Assembly: GCF_000722635.1 (NCBI RefSeq) | Contig: NZ_JOKH01000005.1 | Span: forward strand, 391,646-455,645 | DNA length: 64,000 nucleotides | Reading direction: 5' to 3' | DNA from: Endozoicomonas numazuensis | GTDB lineage: Bacteria; Pseudomonadota; Gammaproteobacteria; Pseudomonadales; Endozoicomonadaceae | In this document: one piece after another, positions 44,273 to 49,643 of the stretch | How the letters are laid out: each line of letters begins with the position of its first letter | How positions within the stretch are numbered: position 1 is the first letter of the stretch | Made by a program: the position numbers and the translations under genes | Notes under the pieces: generated by a model | What the model was told of the DNA's origin: nothing | What the model saw: the letters and a program-made list of their open reading frames with translations, nothing else | Databases searched by the model: none

Positions 44273-47011
44273 ATGTCAGATCAAGCCAGTACGCCCCTTG
44301 TGCTCGTAGATGGATCTTCTTACCTCTATCGGGCTTTTCATGCTTCAGAGCGAGCCAACCTGAGAACCTTAGACGGGCGTCCAACAGGGGCGATCCGTGT
44401 GATGACCAATATGCTGAAGAGTTTGCTGAGGGAATATCCGGGCAGCCCGGTTGCGGTTGTCTTTGATGCCAAGGGTAAAAACTTCCGGCACGACATGTAC
44501 GAAGACTACAAGGCGACGCGTAAGCCAATGCCTGATGATCTTCGCTCGCAAGTTCAGCCTATTCACGCCATTGTTCGTGCTTTGGGTATGCCGTTGTTGA
44601 TGATCGATGCTGTTGAAGCCGACGATGTGATCGGGACATTGGCAAAAGAAGCGACTGAGAAAAAAATTGATACAGTCATCTCAACCGGCGACAAAGATAT
44701 CGCCCAGCTGGTATCAGAACATGTCACTCTTATCGACACCATGAATGACTCTCGCACCGATCTGGCTGGTGTTGTCGATAAGTTTGGTATTCCTGCCCAT
44801 CTGATTATTGATTACCTGGCTCTCATGGGAGATTCCAGTGACAATATTCCCGGCATGCCCGGGGTTGGACAAAAAACAGCGCTGGCTCTCTTACAGGGGA
44901 TTGGCAGCATTGATGAGATTGCCAGGCGTTTGGACGAAGTCGCTGCTCTGGGATTCAGGGGCAGCAAGAATTTTGCTCCCAAGTTTGAAGAGCACAAGGA
45001 TATTGTGCTGCTCTCCAGAGACCTGGCCACTATCAAAACCGATGTTGAACTCCCCGTTGCGATTGAAGACCTTAAAGCCGAGCCAATCGATAAGGAAGCT
45101 CTGCTGACTCTGTATAAAGAATATGAGTTCCGTTCCATGGTGACTGAACTGGAACAAGGAATGGGAGGGGAGTCAGAATCTGAGCCAGCCAGACCCGCGA
45201 TCAATGCTGAGTACGAAACTGTTTTGGATCAGGACGGCTTTAATCGCTGGCTTAAACGCCTGGATGATGCAGAACTGTTTGCCTTTGATACCGAAACGAC
45301 CAGTCTTGATTACATGGAAGCGGAGCTGGTGGGACTGTCTTTCGCTGTAGAAGCAGGTAAAGCTGCGTATGTTCCAGTGGCTCATGATTATGTGGGAGCA
45401 CCGGATCAACTGGACAGAAACTGGGTACTTGAACAGATCAAACCACTGTTAGAGAACCCCGAAAAGAAAAAGGTTGGTCAGAACCTGAAATATGATAAGA
45501 GTGTATTGGCCAACTATGACATCAGTCTGGAAGGGATTGACTGGGATACGATGCTCGAGTCGTATGTTTTGAATTCTACGGCAACCCGCCATGATATGGA
45601 CAGCCTGGCCCAGAAATACCTCGATCATCAATGCATTTCTTTTGAAGAGATTGCAGGTAAAGGTAAAAAGCAGCTTACCTTTAATCAGATTGATCTTGAA
45701 ATTGCCGCTCCCTATGCCGCTGAAGATGCTGATATTACTCTGAGGCTGCATGAGACTCTTGCCCCTCAACTGGAGAAAGAGTCGTCTCTGTATTCTGTCT
45801 TCCGTGATATTGAAATGCCACTGGTTGGCATTATGTCTCGTATGGAAAGGCGAGGAGCCAAGGTGAATGGAAGCCTGCTGGCTCAGCAGAGTATGGAAAT
45901 CGGCAAGCGCCTGCACGAATTGGAAAAACAAGCGCATGATGCTGCAGGTGAACCTTTTAATCTGGCATCTCCCAAACAGCTACAGGTAATTCTGTTTGAA
46001 AAGCTGGGCTTGCCGGTCATCAAGAAAACCCCAAAAGGACAACCTTCCACAGCTGAAGAAGTACTTCAGGAGCTGGCTTTGGATTATCCGTTGCCAAAGC
46101 TTCTGATTGAACATCGTGGTCTCAGTAAGTTGAAATCAACTTACACAGATAAGTTACCCCAGATGATCAATCCGGTCACTGGACGCATTCATACCTCTTA
46201 TCACCAGGCTGTGACGGCCACAGGTCGATTGTCCTCTTCCGATCCTAACCTTCAGAACATTCCCATTCGTACTGAGGAAGGACGCAAGGTACGTCAGGCC
46301 TTTGTAGCGCCTGAAGGGTATCAGTTGATTGCGGCTGACTACTCTCAGATCGAGCTGAGAATCATGGCGCATCTTTCTGATGATGCAGGTCTGCTGGACG
46401 CTTTTGCCAAGGGGCTGGATATTCACAAAGCCACTGCCGCAGAAGTTTTTGGTGTTGCATTGGAAGAGGTCACTACCGACCAGCGAAGAAGTGCAAAGGC
46501 GATTAACTTTGGTCTGATTTATGGAATGTCCTCTTTCGGACTGGCCAAACAGCTGGGCATTTCCAGAAAGTCGGCACAAGAGTACATTGACCTTTATTTC
46601 GATCGTTACCCGGGTGTTCTTCATTACATGGATCGAACTAAAGAGTCTGCAAAGGAAAAAGGGTATGTGGAGACTCTGTTTGGACGGAGACTTTATCTTC
46701 CTGAAATCAATGCTCGAAATGGTATGCGCCGCCAGGCTGCTGAACGGACTGCTATCAATGCCCCTATGCAGGGAACGGCTGCTGACATCATTAAGAGAGC
46801 AATGGCTGATGTAGATCAGTGGCTTACTGAGAGTGATCTTGATGCCAGAATGATTTTGCAGGTGCACGATGAATTGATTTTGGAAGTTTCTGAAGAACAG
46901 CTTGAAGTCGTTAAAGCGGGGATCGTGGAAAAAATGTCGCTGGCTGCAGAACTTAAGGTTCCGCTACTGGTTGAAGCTGGCACAGGATATAACTGGGACG
47001 AAGCTCACTAG
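44273..47011 (+). CDS. polA: DNA polymerase I
   Basis: Repair and Okazaki-fragment processing polymerase, 912 residues. The 5' nuclease domain (1-300) has DGSSYLYRAFHA and the Asp clusters; the 3'-5' exonuclease (about 310-500) retains FDTETTSLD and YAAEDADIT, so proofreading is probably active; the polymerase domain has motif A DYSQIELRIMAH, motif B around INFGLIYGMSSFGLA and motif C QVHDELILEV. It ends NWDEAH, the same place as the E. coli protein. The stop codon TAG is part of the CTAG at the left end of a MITE. Confidence 0.97.
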   Translation: MSDQASTPLVLVDGSSYLYRAFHASERANLRTLDGRPTGAIRVMTNMLKSLLREYPGSPVAVVFDAKGKNFRHDMYEDYKATRKPMPDDLRSQVQPIHAIVRALGMPLLMIDAVEADDVIGTLAKEATEKKIDTVISTGDKDIAQLVSEHVTLIDTMNDSRTDLAGVVDKFGIPAHLIIDYLALMGDSSDNIPGMPGVGQKTALALLQGIGSIDEIARRLDEVAALGFRGSKNFAPKFEEHKDIVLLSRDLATIKTDVELPVAIEDLKAEPIDKEALLTLYKEYEFRSMVTELEQGMGGESESEPARPAINAEYETVLDQDGFNRWLKRLDDAELFAFDTETTSLDYMEAELVGLSFAVEAGKAAYVPVAHDYVGAPDQLDRNWVLEQIKPLLENPEKKKVGQNLKYDKSVLANYDISLEGIDWDTMLESYVLNSTATRHDMDSLAQKYLDHQCISFEEIAGKGKKQLTFNQIDLEIAAPYAAEDADITLRLHETLAPQLEKESSLYSVFRDIEMPLVGIMSRMERRGAKVNGSLLAQQSMEIGKRLHELEKQAHDAAGEPFNLASPKQLQVILFEKLGLPVIKKTPKGQPSTAEEVLQELALDYPLPKLLIEHRGLSKLKSTYTDKLPQMINPVTGRIHTSYHQAVTATGRLSSSDPNLQNIPIRTEEGRKVRQAFVAPEGYQLIAADYSQIELRIMAHLSDDAGLLDAFAKGLDIHKATAAEVFGVALEEVTTDQRRSAKAINFGLIYGMSSFGLAKQLGISRKSAQEYIDLYFDRYPGVLHYMDRTKESAKEKGYVETLFGRRLYLPEINARNGMRRQAAERTAINAPMQGTAADIIKRAMADVDQWLTESDLDARMILQVHDELILEVSEEQLEVVKAGIVEKMSLAAELKVPLLVEAGTGYNWDEAH

Positions 47012-47175
47012 GAGGCTGACCGAGAATAGTGGTCGAGAATAAAATTCAGTAGAACGAGGCCATTTTTTCGAGGTATTTGTGCGAATAGTGGGCTTATTCA
47101 ATAAAATTCATCGGAAAAAGGGGCTGTTCTTTCTGGATTTTAGGCCGACCTGTCTATTCTCGGACAGGCTCCTAG
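47008..47175. mobile_element. MITE family A, tandem copy 1 (on the polA stop codon)
   Basis: 168 bp from CTAG 47008-47011 to CTAG 47172-47175. Left end AGGAGGCTGACCGAGAATAG, right end CTATTCTCGGACAGGCTCCTAG. The interior is diverged from copies 2 and 59973 (GTGGTCGAGAATAAAATTC, TTTTTTCGAGGTATTTG). It shares its right CTAG with the next copy. Confidence 0.9.
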
Positions 47176-47339
47176 GAGGCTGACCGAGAATAGCGTCCGA
47201 GCATAAAATTCAGTAGAACGAGTCAGCTTTTTCACTGAATTTGTGCGAATAGTTGACCTATTTAAGCAAATTCAGTGGAAAAGATGGCCGTTCTTTCTGG
47301 ATTTTAGGCCGGGCTGTCTATTCTCGGTCAGCCTCCTAG
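47172..47339. mobile_element. MITE family A, tandem copy 2
   Basis: 168 bp with perfect ends CTAGGAGGCTGACCGAGAAT and its complement. By direct comparison it is identical, base for base, to the copy at 59973-60140, which points to recent movement or gene conversion. Internal complementary motifs (AAATTCAGT, ACTGAATTT, AATTTG/CAAATT) allow several hairpins. No coding capacity. Confidence 0.93.
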
Positions 47340-47390
47340 CATGGAGTAGGTCCGTGGTAAGTCCCTCAGGTTCTGAGAATAGCTAAGAAA

Positions 47391-47417
47391 ACGTCAGGGT
47401 TTCCCCTGGCGTTTTTT
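47391..47417 (+). terminator. Probable polA terminator, displaced by MITEs
   Basis: CGTCAGGG/CCCTGGCG stem with one G-U pair, then GTTTTTTG. It lies 380 bp past the polA stop, with the two MITE copies in between. Confidence 0.7.
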
Positions 47418-47744
47418 GAAAACACTCAATCGTAATCCAGACCTGAACAATACTTCTCTCTGGAAGCATTAAACCACCGCTTTGGAAGCTCAAGTGTTAC
47501 TGCTTGGTTCTTACGACCGTTCCGATATCAAGACCGGACACTATTATGCTTCGCTCATAGCTGTTTAGTGTTGGCTTCCTGCCTGACTAAGACTAGCCTT
47601 TTCAAGAGAACGCAAAGTTGTCTTTTGTAGACTTGCCGTTACCGTTTATTTAAAAGATGCAGTTTTGTTTCATTGTGGAACTCAACGTGAAAGGACTGAT
47701 TTTCAGAACGTCGAAAATTTTTTATATTTTTTTTCACGTCAGTG

Positions 47745-47772
47745 GGAACTTTTTCAGATTTTGGTTGTCTCA
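47745..47772 (+). promoter_or_regulatory. Sigma-E/AlgU-type promoter of sRNA 1
   Basis: GGAACTT (47745-47751), 16-nt spacer, TCTCA (47768-47772), with GTAGGG starting 7 nt after the -10. It matches the extracytoplasmic sigma factor consensus GGAACTT-N16-17-TCTGA/TCAAA. Confidence 0.75.
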
Positions 47773-47778
47773 GTATAT

Positions 47779-47907
47779 GTAGGGAGGCAAAAACCTTTCT
47801 ACAGACTCCTTGTGTGTTTAGTGTTGGCAAAACTTCAGCGCTGTGTTCCCCGACACAGGCTGTAACGAACCGGTAACCGTTCCCCCTTGGTGACCGGTTT
47901 TTTTTTT
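47779..47907 (+). ncRNA. sRNA 1, ErsA/Spot 42-locus family
   Basis: Predicted ~129-nt RNA from the GTAGGG start to the T-run. A 5' stem pairs GTAGGGAGG with CCTTTCTAC. The invariant core CCTTGTGTGTTTAG is at 47808-47821. An internal hairpin CTGTGT/ACACAG encloses TCCCCG. The terminator has arms AACCGGTAACC (47868-47878) and GGTGACCGGTT (47889-47899) around a C-rich loop, then nine T. Position after polA matches Spot 42 and ErsA. Short open frames across it are not convincing genes. Confidence 0.75.
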
Positions 47908-47952
47908 GCCTGAAAGTCAGCCAGAAAAATATGGAATAAATTACATCTTCTG

Positions 47953-47980
47953 GGAACTTTCTAAGATTTTGGTTGTCTCA
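47953..47980 (+). promoter_or_regulatory. Sigma-E/AlgU-type promoter of sRNA 2
   Basis: GGAACTT (47953-47959), 16-nt spacer, TCTCA (47976-47980); GTAGGG begins 7 nt further on. Confidence 0.75.
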
Positions 47981-47986
47981 GTTTAT

Positions 47987-48110
47987 GTAGGGAGGCGAGA
48001 ACCTTTCTACAGACTCCTTGTGTGTTTAGTGTGGCAATAATTTCAGAGCAGTGTCCGCGACACAGTCTGCGAAGAGCCGGTAACCCCTCCCTTGGTGACC
48101 GGTTTTTTTT
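47987..48110 (+). ncRNA. sRNA 2, ErsA/Spot 42-locus family
   Basis: Predicted ~124-nt RNA, the closest relative of sRNA 1: same 5' stem, core CCTTGTGTGTTTAG at 48016-48029 (same offset from the start), an internal hairpin GTGTC-CGC-GACAC, and a terminator with arms CCGGTAACC/GGTGACCGG (48077-48085, 48094-48102) followed by eight T. It has its own promoter and terminator, so it should be an independent transcript. Confidence 0.75.
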
Positions 48111-48177
48111 GTCTCTAAAAAATTTTCTTTCCAGTGGTTGCTCACCAGCAACTTCCTGACAAAAAAATCTTTAGGCG

Positions 48178-48205
48178 GGAACTTTTTCTGGAGTGTGTTG
48201 TCTCA
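48178..48205 (+). promoter_or_regulatory. Sigma-E/AlgU-type promoter of sRNA 3
   Basis: GGAACTT (48178-48184), 16-nt spacer, TCTCA (48201-48205); GTAGGG begins 7 nt further on. Spacer sequence differs from copies 1 and 2 while both boxes are kept. Confidence 0.75.
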
Positions 48206-48211
48206 ATCTAT

Positions 48212-48338
48212 GTAGGGAGGCGAAAACCTTTCTACAGATTCCTTGTGTGTTTAGAGTTGGCTAAAAAGCAGATTTGTGTTCCCCGACACAAACTGCAATC
48301 AACCGGTTACCATCCCCCTTGGTAACCGGTTTTTTTTT
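48212..48338 (+). ncRNA. sRNA 3, ErsA/Spot 42-locus family
   Basis: Predicted ~127-nt RNA. Core at 48241-48254, same offset as copies 1 and 2. The internal hairpin TTTGTGT/ACACAAA shows a compensatory C-G to T-A pair change against sRNA 1 with the same TCCCCG loop. The terminator stem AACCGGTTACC/GGTAACCGGTT is perfect and followed by a T-run. Confidence 0.75.
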
Positions 48339-48480
48339 ACCTGAAAATTATTTTTTGTTAAACGACAGTGCTTTTTGTTTTGTCACTTATGGCGGTTAGA
48401 AGTCTGTACTGTAAGTTTTTCTATCTGGGTCGATAGTCTAATTTGGACGCAATGGTAAGGCGGTGATCTAGAGAATGGAT

Positions 48481-48508
48481 GGAACTTACCGGAATATTGG
48501 CTGTCTTA
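48481..48508 (+). promoter_or_regulatory. Sigma-E/AlgU-type promoter of sRNA 4
   Basis: GGAACTT (48481-48487), 16-nt spacer, TCTTA (48504-48508); GTGAGGG begins 7 nt further on. Confidence 0.7.
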
Positions 48509-48514
48509 TGTTAT

Positions 48515-48642
48515 GTGAGGGAATTACCTCCCCCGTATTCTCTCGCAGCACTCCTTGTGTGTTTAGTGTTAACAAACTCCGTACCTCCATATGACGGAGC
48601 TTGGTGCCCCAGCTATCTCCCCCCGATGGCTGGGGCTTTTTT
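48515..48642 (+). ncRNA. sRNA 4, divergent family member with a Spot 42-like terminator
   Basis: Predicted ~128-nt RNA. The 5' end GTGAGGG pairs with a downstream CCTC; the invariant core is at 48553-48566; a hairpin CTCCGT/ACGGAG (48577-48599) replaces the TCCCCG hairpin. The terminator is GCCCCAGCTATC/GATGGCTGGGGC with a C-rich loop and a T-run, close in sequence to the GCCCCAGT stem of E. coli Spot 42. It is nearest to engB and may represent the ancestral gene. Convergent with engB. Confidence 0.75.
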
Positions 48643-48678
48643 ATGCACAGGGTTTTCTCGACGAGACAGGTACCTCTG

Positions 48679-49317
48679 TTATTCCTCTTCCTGCTCCTCC
48701 AGTGGCTCATCCTCTACCAGTAACCAGGTATCAAGGCGTTGCGCCAGCTGGTCGACCCCGGTTTTTTTCAAAGCGGAAAACAACTGCATCGAAATTTGCG
48801 GATAGTCTGAGAGTTCGTTGCGTAGATTATTCAAAGCCTGTTTGGCAACGCCTGATTTCAGTTTGTCGCTCTTGGTCAATAGAATGTGCAGAGGCATTTC
48901 GGAGTTGATGCTCCACTGGACCATCATTCGGTCGAACTCTTTCAGTGGGTGACGTATATCCACCAGCAGCACGAGCCCCACCAATGAGCCTCGGTTGTTC
49001 AAATAATCATTCAGATGCTTCTGCCATTCAATTTTCATGGCTTCCGGCACTTTGGCATATCCATAGCCAGGAAGGTCAACCAGATGAATGTTGTCTTCAA
49101 TATTGAAGTAATTCATCAGTTGGGTGCGTCCGGGGGTTTTACTGGTACGAGCAATCTTTGAGCCGGTCAGGGTGTTCAGTGCACTGGATTTGCCCGCGTT
49201 GGAACGACCCGCAAAAGCGACTTCCCTGCCATTATCAGGAGGACATAGTTTTAGCTTTGGGGCACTGGTCAGAAACTTGGCCTTGCGATAGTTCAAACCG
49301 CTTTTGGGTTCACTCAT
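48679..49317 (-). CDS. engB: Ribosome biogenesis GTPase EngB (YihA/YsxC)
   Basis: Essential GTPase for 50S assembly. G-motifs: GRSNAGKSS (G1, near residue 38), TPGRTQ (G2), [11 protein letters not shown] (G3), LLTKSDKL (G4) and a C-terminal SALK (G5). Length 212 with an acidic tail ([11 protein letters not shown]). It follows polA and the sRNA cluster, in the conserved order of Pseudomonas and enterics. Confidence 0.95.
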
Positions 49318-49643
49318 GTGTCAGACCTGTCAGGAAGTTTCCCTGTCCGGGAACTTCTAATAAGAAATGAAAAGTTGGCGCAATTTTGCTTGACTTGTAA
49401 GCGGAATGGAATAGCACCGTGGCATTCGCCGATAATTGGCAGCCGGGCATCTTGAGCCAATTGTTTCAGAAAAAAAAATCGTTTGTCTGACAGTAGCGAA
49501 TTTACTGGGCTCGACGGCCTACCGGAAAAGAGCATTACAGTATATACTAGCTTTCGTTTTGAGGCATATGCAGCCATTTTAAGCCACCTTTTTCAGAATA
49601 AGGACCGAGCACAGGTCGAAAAAACTAGCTGAATATAGAGGAC

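Follow-up and report, generated by a model that had tools for sequence, protein, structure and literature searches.

A putative tandem array of four ErsA-like sRNA genes with sigma-E-type promoters between polA and engB in Endozoicomonas numazuensis

The gap between polA and engB of Endozoicomonas numazuensis contains four consecutive units, each composed of a promoter, a 5' hairpin, a near-invariant core, a further hairpin, and a terminator (Table 1; positions are those of the window, i.e., the whole 64,000-nucleotide stretch of DNA analysed). Judged from their sequence, these units are very probably an array of sigma-E-type, ErsA-like sRNA genes. The whole reading, in which four paralogous trans-acting sRNAs sharing a common core would be driven by RpoE and raise the dose of a porin repressor, is given a probability of roughly three in four. 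Such an array probably cuts outer-membrane pore production upon envelope damage.

An initial annotation of this DNA had described four units here, with 16 nt from GGAACTT to TCTCA or TCTTA and predicted starts at 47779, 47987, 48212, and 48515. All are found at these positions; the 16 nt consist of 15 nt plus the G of GTCTNA, and each predicted start is the seventh base after GTCTCA or GTCTTA. Each unit had also been credited with its own terminator, a GC-rich hairpin followed by a T-run, which folding bears out for all four; a strict terminator scan flagged units 3 and 4 only, and not units 1 and 2. Units 1 to 4 measure 128, 124, 127, and 128 nt, respectively. Pairwise identity is 86–91% among units 1–3 and 76–80% between these and unit 4. 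Units 1 and 4 carry the common 20-nt core (CUCCUUGUGUGUUUAGUGUU / CTCCTTGTGTGTTTAGTGTT) unaltered, while unit 2 deviates from it at one position and unit 3 at two; this core is absent from the initial annotation. As homologous predicted sRNA genes (at least two) with a common core in one genome, the units qualify as multicopy (sibling) sRNAs. The ORF on the engB side has a match in 55 of 58 genomes, its own included, with identities of 91% to Endozoicomonas sp. ISHI1, 83% to OPT23, and 82% to strain Hp36.

Table 1. Features of the polA-engB region (window positions); R2 and R3 are covariance models described in the text
Feature	Position	Strand	Parts and scores
912-aa ORF preceding the array, which we take from its sequence to be polA (DNA polymerase I)	44273..47011	+	
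Unit 1 sigma-E-type promoter, GGAACTT-N15-GTCTCA	47745..47772	+	
Unit 1 predicted sRNA (A type)	47779..47906	+	SL1 47779-47802, core 47806-47825, SL2 47836-47862, terminator 47867-47906; RF01719 35.7 bits; R2 E 1.7e-6; R3 E 1.7e-5; fold
Unit 2 sigma-E-type promoter, GGAACTT-N15-GTCTCA	47953..47980	+	
Unit 2 predicted sRNA (A type)	47987..48110	+	SL1 47987-48010, core 48014-48033, terminator 48071-48110 (fold of the middle less clear); R2 E 0.0038; fold
Unit 3 sigma-E-type promoter, GGAACTT-N15-GTCTCA	48178..48205	+	
Unit 3 predicted sRNA (A type)	48212..48338	+	SL1 ~48211-48236, core 48239-48258, SL2 48268-48296, terminator 48301-48338; RF01719 30.9 bits; R2 E 1.9e-5; R3 E 4.3e-4; fold
Unit 4 sigma-E-type promoter, GGAACTT-N15-GTCTTA	48481..48508	+	
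Unit 4 predicted sRNA (B type, engB side)	48515..48642	+	SL1 ~48514-48547, core 48551-48570, SL2 48573-48603, terminator 48606-48642; RF01719 38.7 bits; R2 E 2.6e-7; R3 E 0.0018; fold
212-aa ORF, presumably the engB/yihA GTPase; convergent downstream neighbour of the array	48679..49317	-	

A palindromic, MITE-like element (ends AGGAGGCTGACCGAGAATAG) is present twice in tandem at 47008-47335; the two copies are 164 bp long and 83% alike, and the pair overlaps the polA stop codon. Allowing up to 3 mismatches, the end sequence is matched 11 times in the window (0 in shuffles), and exact matches, in some cases in tandem, occur in 18 of the 40 20-kb stretches examined in the genome. A phage origin of the array was considered and rejected, as no similar DNA was found in the phage collection.

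Kinship to ErsA and RNA architecture

Searching the units against Rfam covariance models, as the initial annotation suggested, relates three of them to ErsA (Pseudomon-1, RF01719) and none to Spot 42. Units 1, 3, and 4 match RF01719 below its gathering cut-off of 50 bits (Table 1), and unit 2 has no match at E ≤ 1; the units are therefore called ErsA-like, and not members of RF01719. Weak matches to sX13, atoC, anti-hemB, and ncS54, all under the cut-offs of those families, were discarded. A covariance model of 31 units from the Endozoicomonas family (R1) was run on 244 genomes of the order, the own genome and family included: 37 match at E ≤ 0.001, 9 of them in the family, and several of the matches outside it are short and partial. 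Twenty of the 21 loci added by R1 were scanned with Rfam, and nine score 107–139 bits with RF01719. All nine belong to a single family (f20), which we infer to be the Pseudomonadaceae. They carry polA motifs in the expected place in nine cases out of nine and engB motifs in eight, so that the synteny comparison puts the array at the same location as ErsA loci.

A second model (R2) comprises 13 RNAs from outside the family, eight of the nine Rfam-scoring ones and five from family f34, the latter having the same core, promoter, and polA side and falling below the Rfam cut-off. Within the window, R2 finds exactly the four units at E ≤ 10; it is not fully independent, its members having been found through R1 and 5 of its 13 RNAs lying under the RF01719 cut-off. 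Because of this descent from R1, a third model (R3) was built from the nine RNAs above the Rfam ErsA cut-off alone, and at E ≤ 10 it retrieves only units 1, 3, and 4 in the window, with no match to unit 2. RF01719 and R2 both place unit 4 closest to ErsA, but R3 scores unit 1 highest, so that no unit is singled out in this respect. Covariance models in both directions, the polA/engB synteny, the common architecture, the promoters, and the RpoE equivalog (see below) together support the proposal of an expanded ErsA-like family, and the array extends ErsA-like RNAs past the present Rfam model.

ErsA has been described as two stem-loops, SL1 and SL2, with a 34-nt U-rich unstructured domain II, encoded between polA and engB (PMC8575079). 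The units match this layout of SL1, unstructured U-rich domain, SL2, and terminator, with a core that is moderately unpaired and a middle part that is less clear in unit 2. When units 1 to 4 were folded against 200 shuffles, 1, 3, 0, and 0 shuffles equalled or bettered them (z -2.82, -2.18, -4.97, and -5.65). RNAalifold on the A-type alignment recovers only SL2 and the terminator (19 pairs, in 8 of which both partners vary in at least one sequence). Because the alignment puts SL1 out of register by one base between subgroups, 43 RNAs (37 units of the family and 6 RNAs of other families) were folded one by one. SL1 is at or below -3 kcal/mol in 42 of the 43, and its energy is reached by at most 4 of 100 shuffles, again in 42; the middle part is at or below -3 kcal/mol and the end at or below -10 kcal/mol in all 43. 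The core is unpaired to a mean of 0.60, versus 0.44 at the same positions of shuffles, and attains at least 0.7 in only 7 of the 43. Of 37 units, 27 have C-rich motifs in their middle region (4.9 expected) and 35 have them in their terminator region (11.0 expected), the expectations coming from mononucleotide shuffles and the count leaving out one truncated unit, G017_u2.

These data bear on what kind of element the units are. That they might be no sRNA genes at all, but for instance protein-binding DNA repeats, is highly improbable, because covariance models relate them to ErsA RNAs that share their strand and locus, and because hairpins are kept across divergent sequences. Membership of the Spot 42 family, a kinship that the initial annotation had also considered, is just as improbable. 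Enteric Spot 42 shares the polA-engB position and the GTAGGG start, and its promoter is of the sigma-70/CRP type. Sigma-70-like sites occur at chance level (2 found vs 2.0 expected), and RF00021 gives no match at E ≤ 1 in 46500-49500; the kinship finds its support in position and in the GTAGGG start, together with a review in which ErsA is called a functional orthologue of Spot 42 (PMC8395346).

Sigma-E-type promoters and predicted porin targets

Sigma-E-type promoters on all four units, as initially proposed, are supported by the sequence of the array and of related loci. At the engB loci of 17 genomes, a promoter accompanies 38 of 39 cores, always with 15 nt between the boxes, the exception being the third unit of genome G004. 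At 18 further loci, it accompanies 26 of 26 cores with 15 or 16 nt, one of them having CTCAAA in place of GTCNNA. The third unit of G003, with a promoter and a degenerate core, stands outside these counts (64 of 65 in sum), and the invariance of the boxes is partly by construction since the search patterns fixed part of each. A scan of the whole genome (6.34 Mb, 31 contigs) for GGAACTT-N15/16-GTCTNA returns 6 sites, 4 of which are the array promoters, and the reversed-pattern control returns 1. The preservation of the boxes had been taken as a sign of selection on the promoters. The concentration of four of six strict sites in the array exceeds chance; in units 1 and 2, the preserved boxes partly reflect recent duplication, given the higher identity among units 1–3 than with unit 4.

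One protein of the genome lies above the curated cut-off of the RpoE equivalog (313.4 bits vs 236.15). Upstream of its gene, GGAACTT-N15-GTCTAT is seen by eye (spacing checked), and the two ORFs that follow occupy, by position only, the places of rseA and rseB. An hfq gene is also present. The sole two strict promoter matches beyond the array are located near a 232-aa ORF (L200, G000:C3:395411-395438, minus strand) and just 3' of an ORF that, by appearance only, looks like a UvrD/Rep-type helicase (L205, G000:C5:457386-457413, plus strand).

Taken as its complement, the core has the sequence of a ribosome-binding site (ACACACAAGGAG). The pattern CACAAGGAG-N3..10-ATG occurs at 40 sites in the 11 genomes of the genus, compared with 14 for the reversed pattern (7 vs 4 in the present genome); 30 of the 40 were read, many leading to frames of less than 80 codons. 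One such site precedes an outer-membrane porin in the present genome and in G006. This porin ("porin 1") scores 182.9 bits with Porin_O_P, and its closest solved structures are porin P and porin O. A background of 640 start regions was drawn from 800 kb of the present genome (40 stretches) and the window, with starts assigned by a simple rule; it contains both porins of the present genome and was used for the porins of other genomes too. Among the 640, no region matches the complement of the unit 1 core exactly over a longer stretch than porin 1 (10 nt, over the ribosome-binding site), a rank that is not independent because porin 1 was first found by the core-complement search. The second Porin_O_P gene has a 9-nt match, tied second with three others. 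Duplex energy places porin 1 first among the 640 for unit 4, 16th for unit 1, 19th for unit 2, and 69th for unit 3 (9th by the mean).

The Porin_O_P paralogue and the porins of other genomes were found by homology; in all, 13 of the 38 family genomes have 15 Porin_O_P genes (E ≤ 1e-8). With cores from their own genomes, 11 of the 15 fall by energy in the best 10% of the background when the best core is used, and 10 when the first core is used; owing to the kinship of the porins, the tests do not count as 15 independent ones. The porin of G008 beats all 640 regions with 3 of 3 own cores and that of G005 with 2 of 3. The four outside the best 10% pair weakly: those of G029, G003, and G004, with 157, 77, and 207 of the 640 regions as good, and the G006 paralogue (264), which has a 10-nt exact match despite its weak energy. 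Shuffled cores were run in seven comparisons covering 6 of the 15 porins, none of them a weak one. In three comparisons none of 60 shuffled cores reaches the real energy, and in the other four a single one does. Judged by rank, 0, 0, 0, 2, 5, 2, and 4 of 60 do as well; this form of the control is weaker than the energy form and, together with the descent of R2 from R1, tempers the confidence in the whole reading.

The complementarity of the core to the start regions of OprO/OprP-type porin mRNAs is a new prediction, strong in some genomes and weak in others, and we lean towards the porin being a direct target of the array RNAs. All 11 genus genomes carry array matches, but the search found no Porin_O_P gene in 5 of them; it therefore cannot be the sole target, and others must exist. 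In G008, CACAAGGAG also lies ahead of the start of an OMP_b-brl protein, an outer-membrane protein of another kind. General targeting of the secretome was rejected, as signal-peptide-like proteins (32 of the 640 regions by a crude rule) are not enriched (P 0.34 for match length, 0.29 for energy). The core complement is also seen before the start of a Band_7/SPFH protein in G005 and G010 (L173 and L198) and of a small helix-hairpin-helix protein in G010 and G007 (L182 and L183), one of each pair having been scanned for its identity; these are possible targets.

Proposed mechanism and known systems

In the proposed mechanism, each of the four paralogous ErsA-like trans-acting sRNA genes would have its own RpoE promoter and terminator. 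Envelope stress would free RpoE and, judging from the promoters and the RpoE gene, all four would be transcribed together. Each RNA would expose nearly the same core between hairpins, and this core, presumably assisted by Hfq, would pair with the start regions of target mRNAs, most likely that of the OprO/OprP-type porin, the translation of which is predicted to be blocked. Duplication would have retained the promoter and the core while the hairpin sequences drifted, so that the main effect would be more sRNA per RpoE activation, and not four regulons.

In E. coli and Salmonella, MicA, RybB, and MicL are sigma-E-driven sRNAs that lower outer-membrane protein mRNAs, as predicted for the array. 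They differ from it in being dispersed, single-copy genes not known to be related to ErsA. For the sibling sRNAs NgncR_162/163 of Neisseria gonorrhoeae, we know of no sigma-E promoter. Like the predicted array RNAs, they are aimed at ribosome-binding sites, with partial redundancy, but they exist in two copies and have metabolic targets, as described in PMC9973317. ErsA of Pseudomonas aeruginosa is reported to be controlled by AlgU and to repress oprD translation (PMC7264166, PMC8395346), with which RpoE-driven porin repression fits. The Pseudomonas RNA and the array have in common the polA-engB location, an AlgU-type promoter (identified here in sequence only), SL1, a core-bearing U-rich stretch, SL2, and a terminator with a C-rich loop. 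They differ in copy number, with one full-length match in each of the nine Rfam-scoring genomes against four units in the Endozoicomonas array, in the Rfam scores of the latter, and in its predicted target, the OprO/OprP-type porin. LhrC1-5 of the Gram-positive Listeria monocytogenes is documented as a multicopy envelope-stress sRNA (PMC4132741); it is under the two-component system LisRK, not RpoE, and no sequence relation to the array is claimed.

Multicopy envelope-stress sRNAs and sibling sRNAs are already known. The initial annotation knew of no four-copy array at this locus. Among the open-access literature matches listed, no title concerns a tandem ErsA array or Endozoicomonas sRNAs; four copies are not particular to the present genome, as G009 also has four. 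The analysis names a testable target, the OprO/OprP-type porin, in a genus for which the open-access titles listed include no sRNA study.

Copy number, dose, and turnover

At E ≤ 0.01, R1 matches 31 of the 38 family genomes, among them all 11 of the genus, with 4, 1, 3, 3, 3, 3, 3, 4, 2, 3, and 2 matches; the single match, in G006, is on an 11.9-kb contig. Nature thus provides genomes with one to four copies of a single predicted envelope-stress sRNA, alike in promoter type and core, in which the old question whether multicopy sRNAs are retained for dose, for sharpness, or for diversification can be put to a direct test. The tree, although weak at several of its deep nodes, pairs units 1 and 2 of the present genome (0.915), shows a separate recent pair in G009 (0.823), and unites the engB-side B-type units in one clade (0.839). 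From these sequences, the duplications are separate and recent, and copies have multiplied repeatedly in relatives.

Since the core is near-identical in all four units and the promoters are of a single type, an effect on dose is favoured over diversification. The four RNAs could nevertheless differ in regulon or timing through their hairpins and loops, above all unit 4 (B) versus units 1–3 (A), a view that is possible though the less probable of the two. The tree sets the A type apart from the B type, and both persist together in 7 of the 10 genus genomes with an engB locus, which leaves room for a division of labour, and the C-rich motifs could be extra pairing sites. Besides the uniform core and promoters, the state of the B type argues against it: its core is degenerate in G003, its promoter is unrecognisable in G004, and no B-type unit was seen in G002. 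The decayed units of G003 and G004, the recent pairs, and the range of matches per genome would suit neutral copy-number turnover by direct-repeat recombination, with a function no greater than that of one ErsA-like gene. This is unlikely, as the promoter is kept at nearly all cores and SL1 in nearly all folded RNAs despite sequence change.

With a dose effect retained as the preferred reading, a broader one may be offered tentatively. The ErsA-like gene of the Endozoicomonadaceae might be a site of recurrent amplification, in which the core and the sigma-E promoter are frozen while parallel lineages gain and lose copies, change the hairpins, and shift the location. Copy number might then determine how sharply porin synthesis drops on RpoE activation, which may be an adaptation to life with marine animal hosts.

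Sixteen loci were fetched away from engB, and polA motifs are found near 12 of them; the others are that of G032 and the second loci of G026, G028, and G030. In G031, assembled as one contig, the array lies ~52 kb from engB. In G011, two units follow polA (L158) and one is at engB (L072), ~119 kb apart on one contig. The second loci of G028, G030, and G026 (L165, L166, and L167), devoid of polA or engB motifs, hold extra ErsA-like units with sigma-E-type promoters, and those of L165 and L166 adjoin ORFs that, by appearance only, resemble a MEMO1-type protein and a radical-SAM enzyme.
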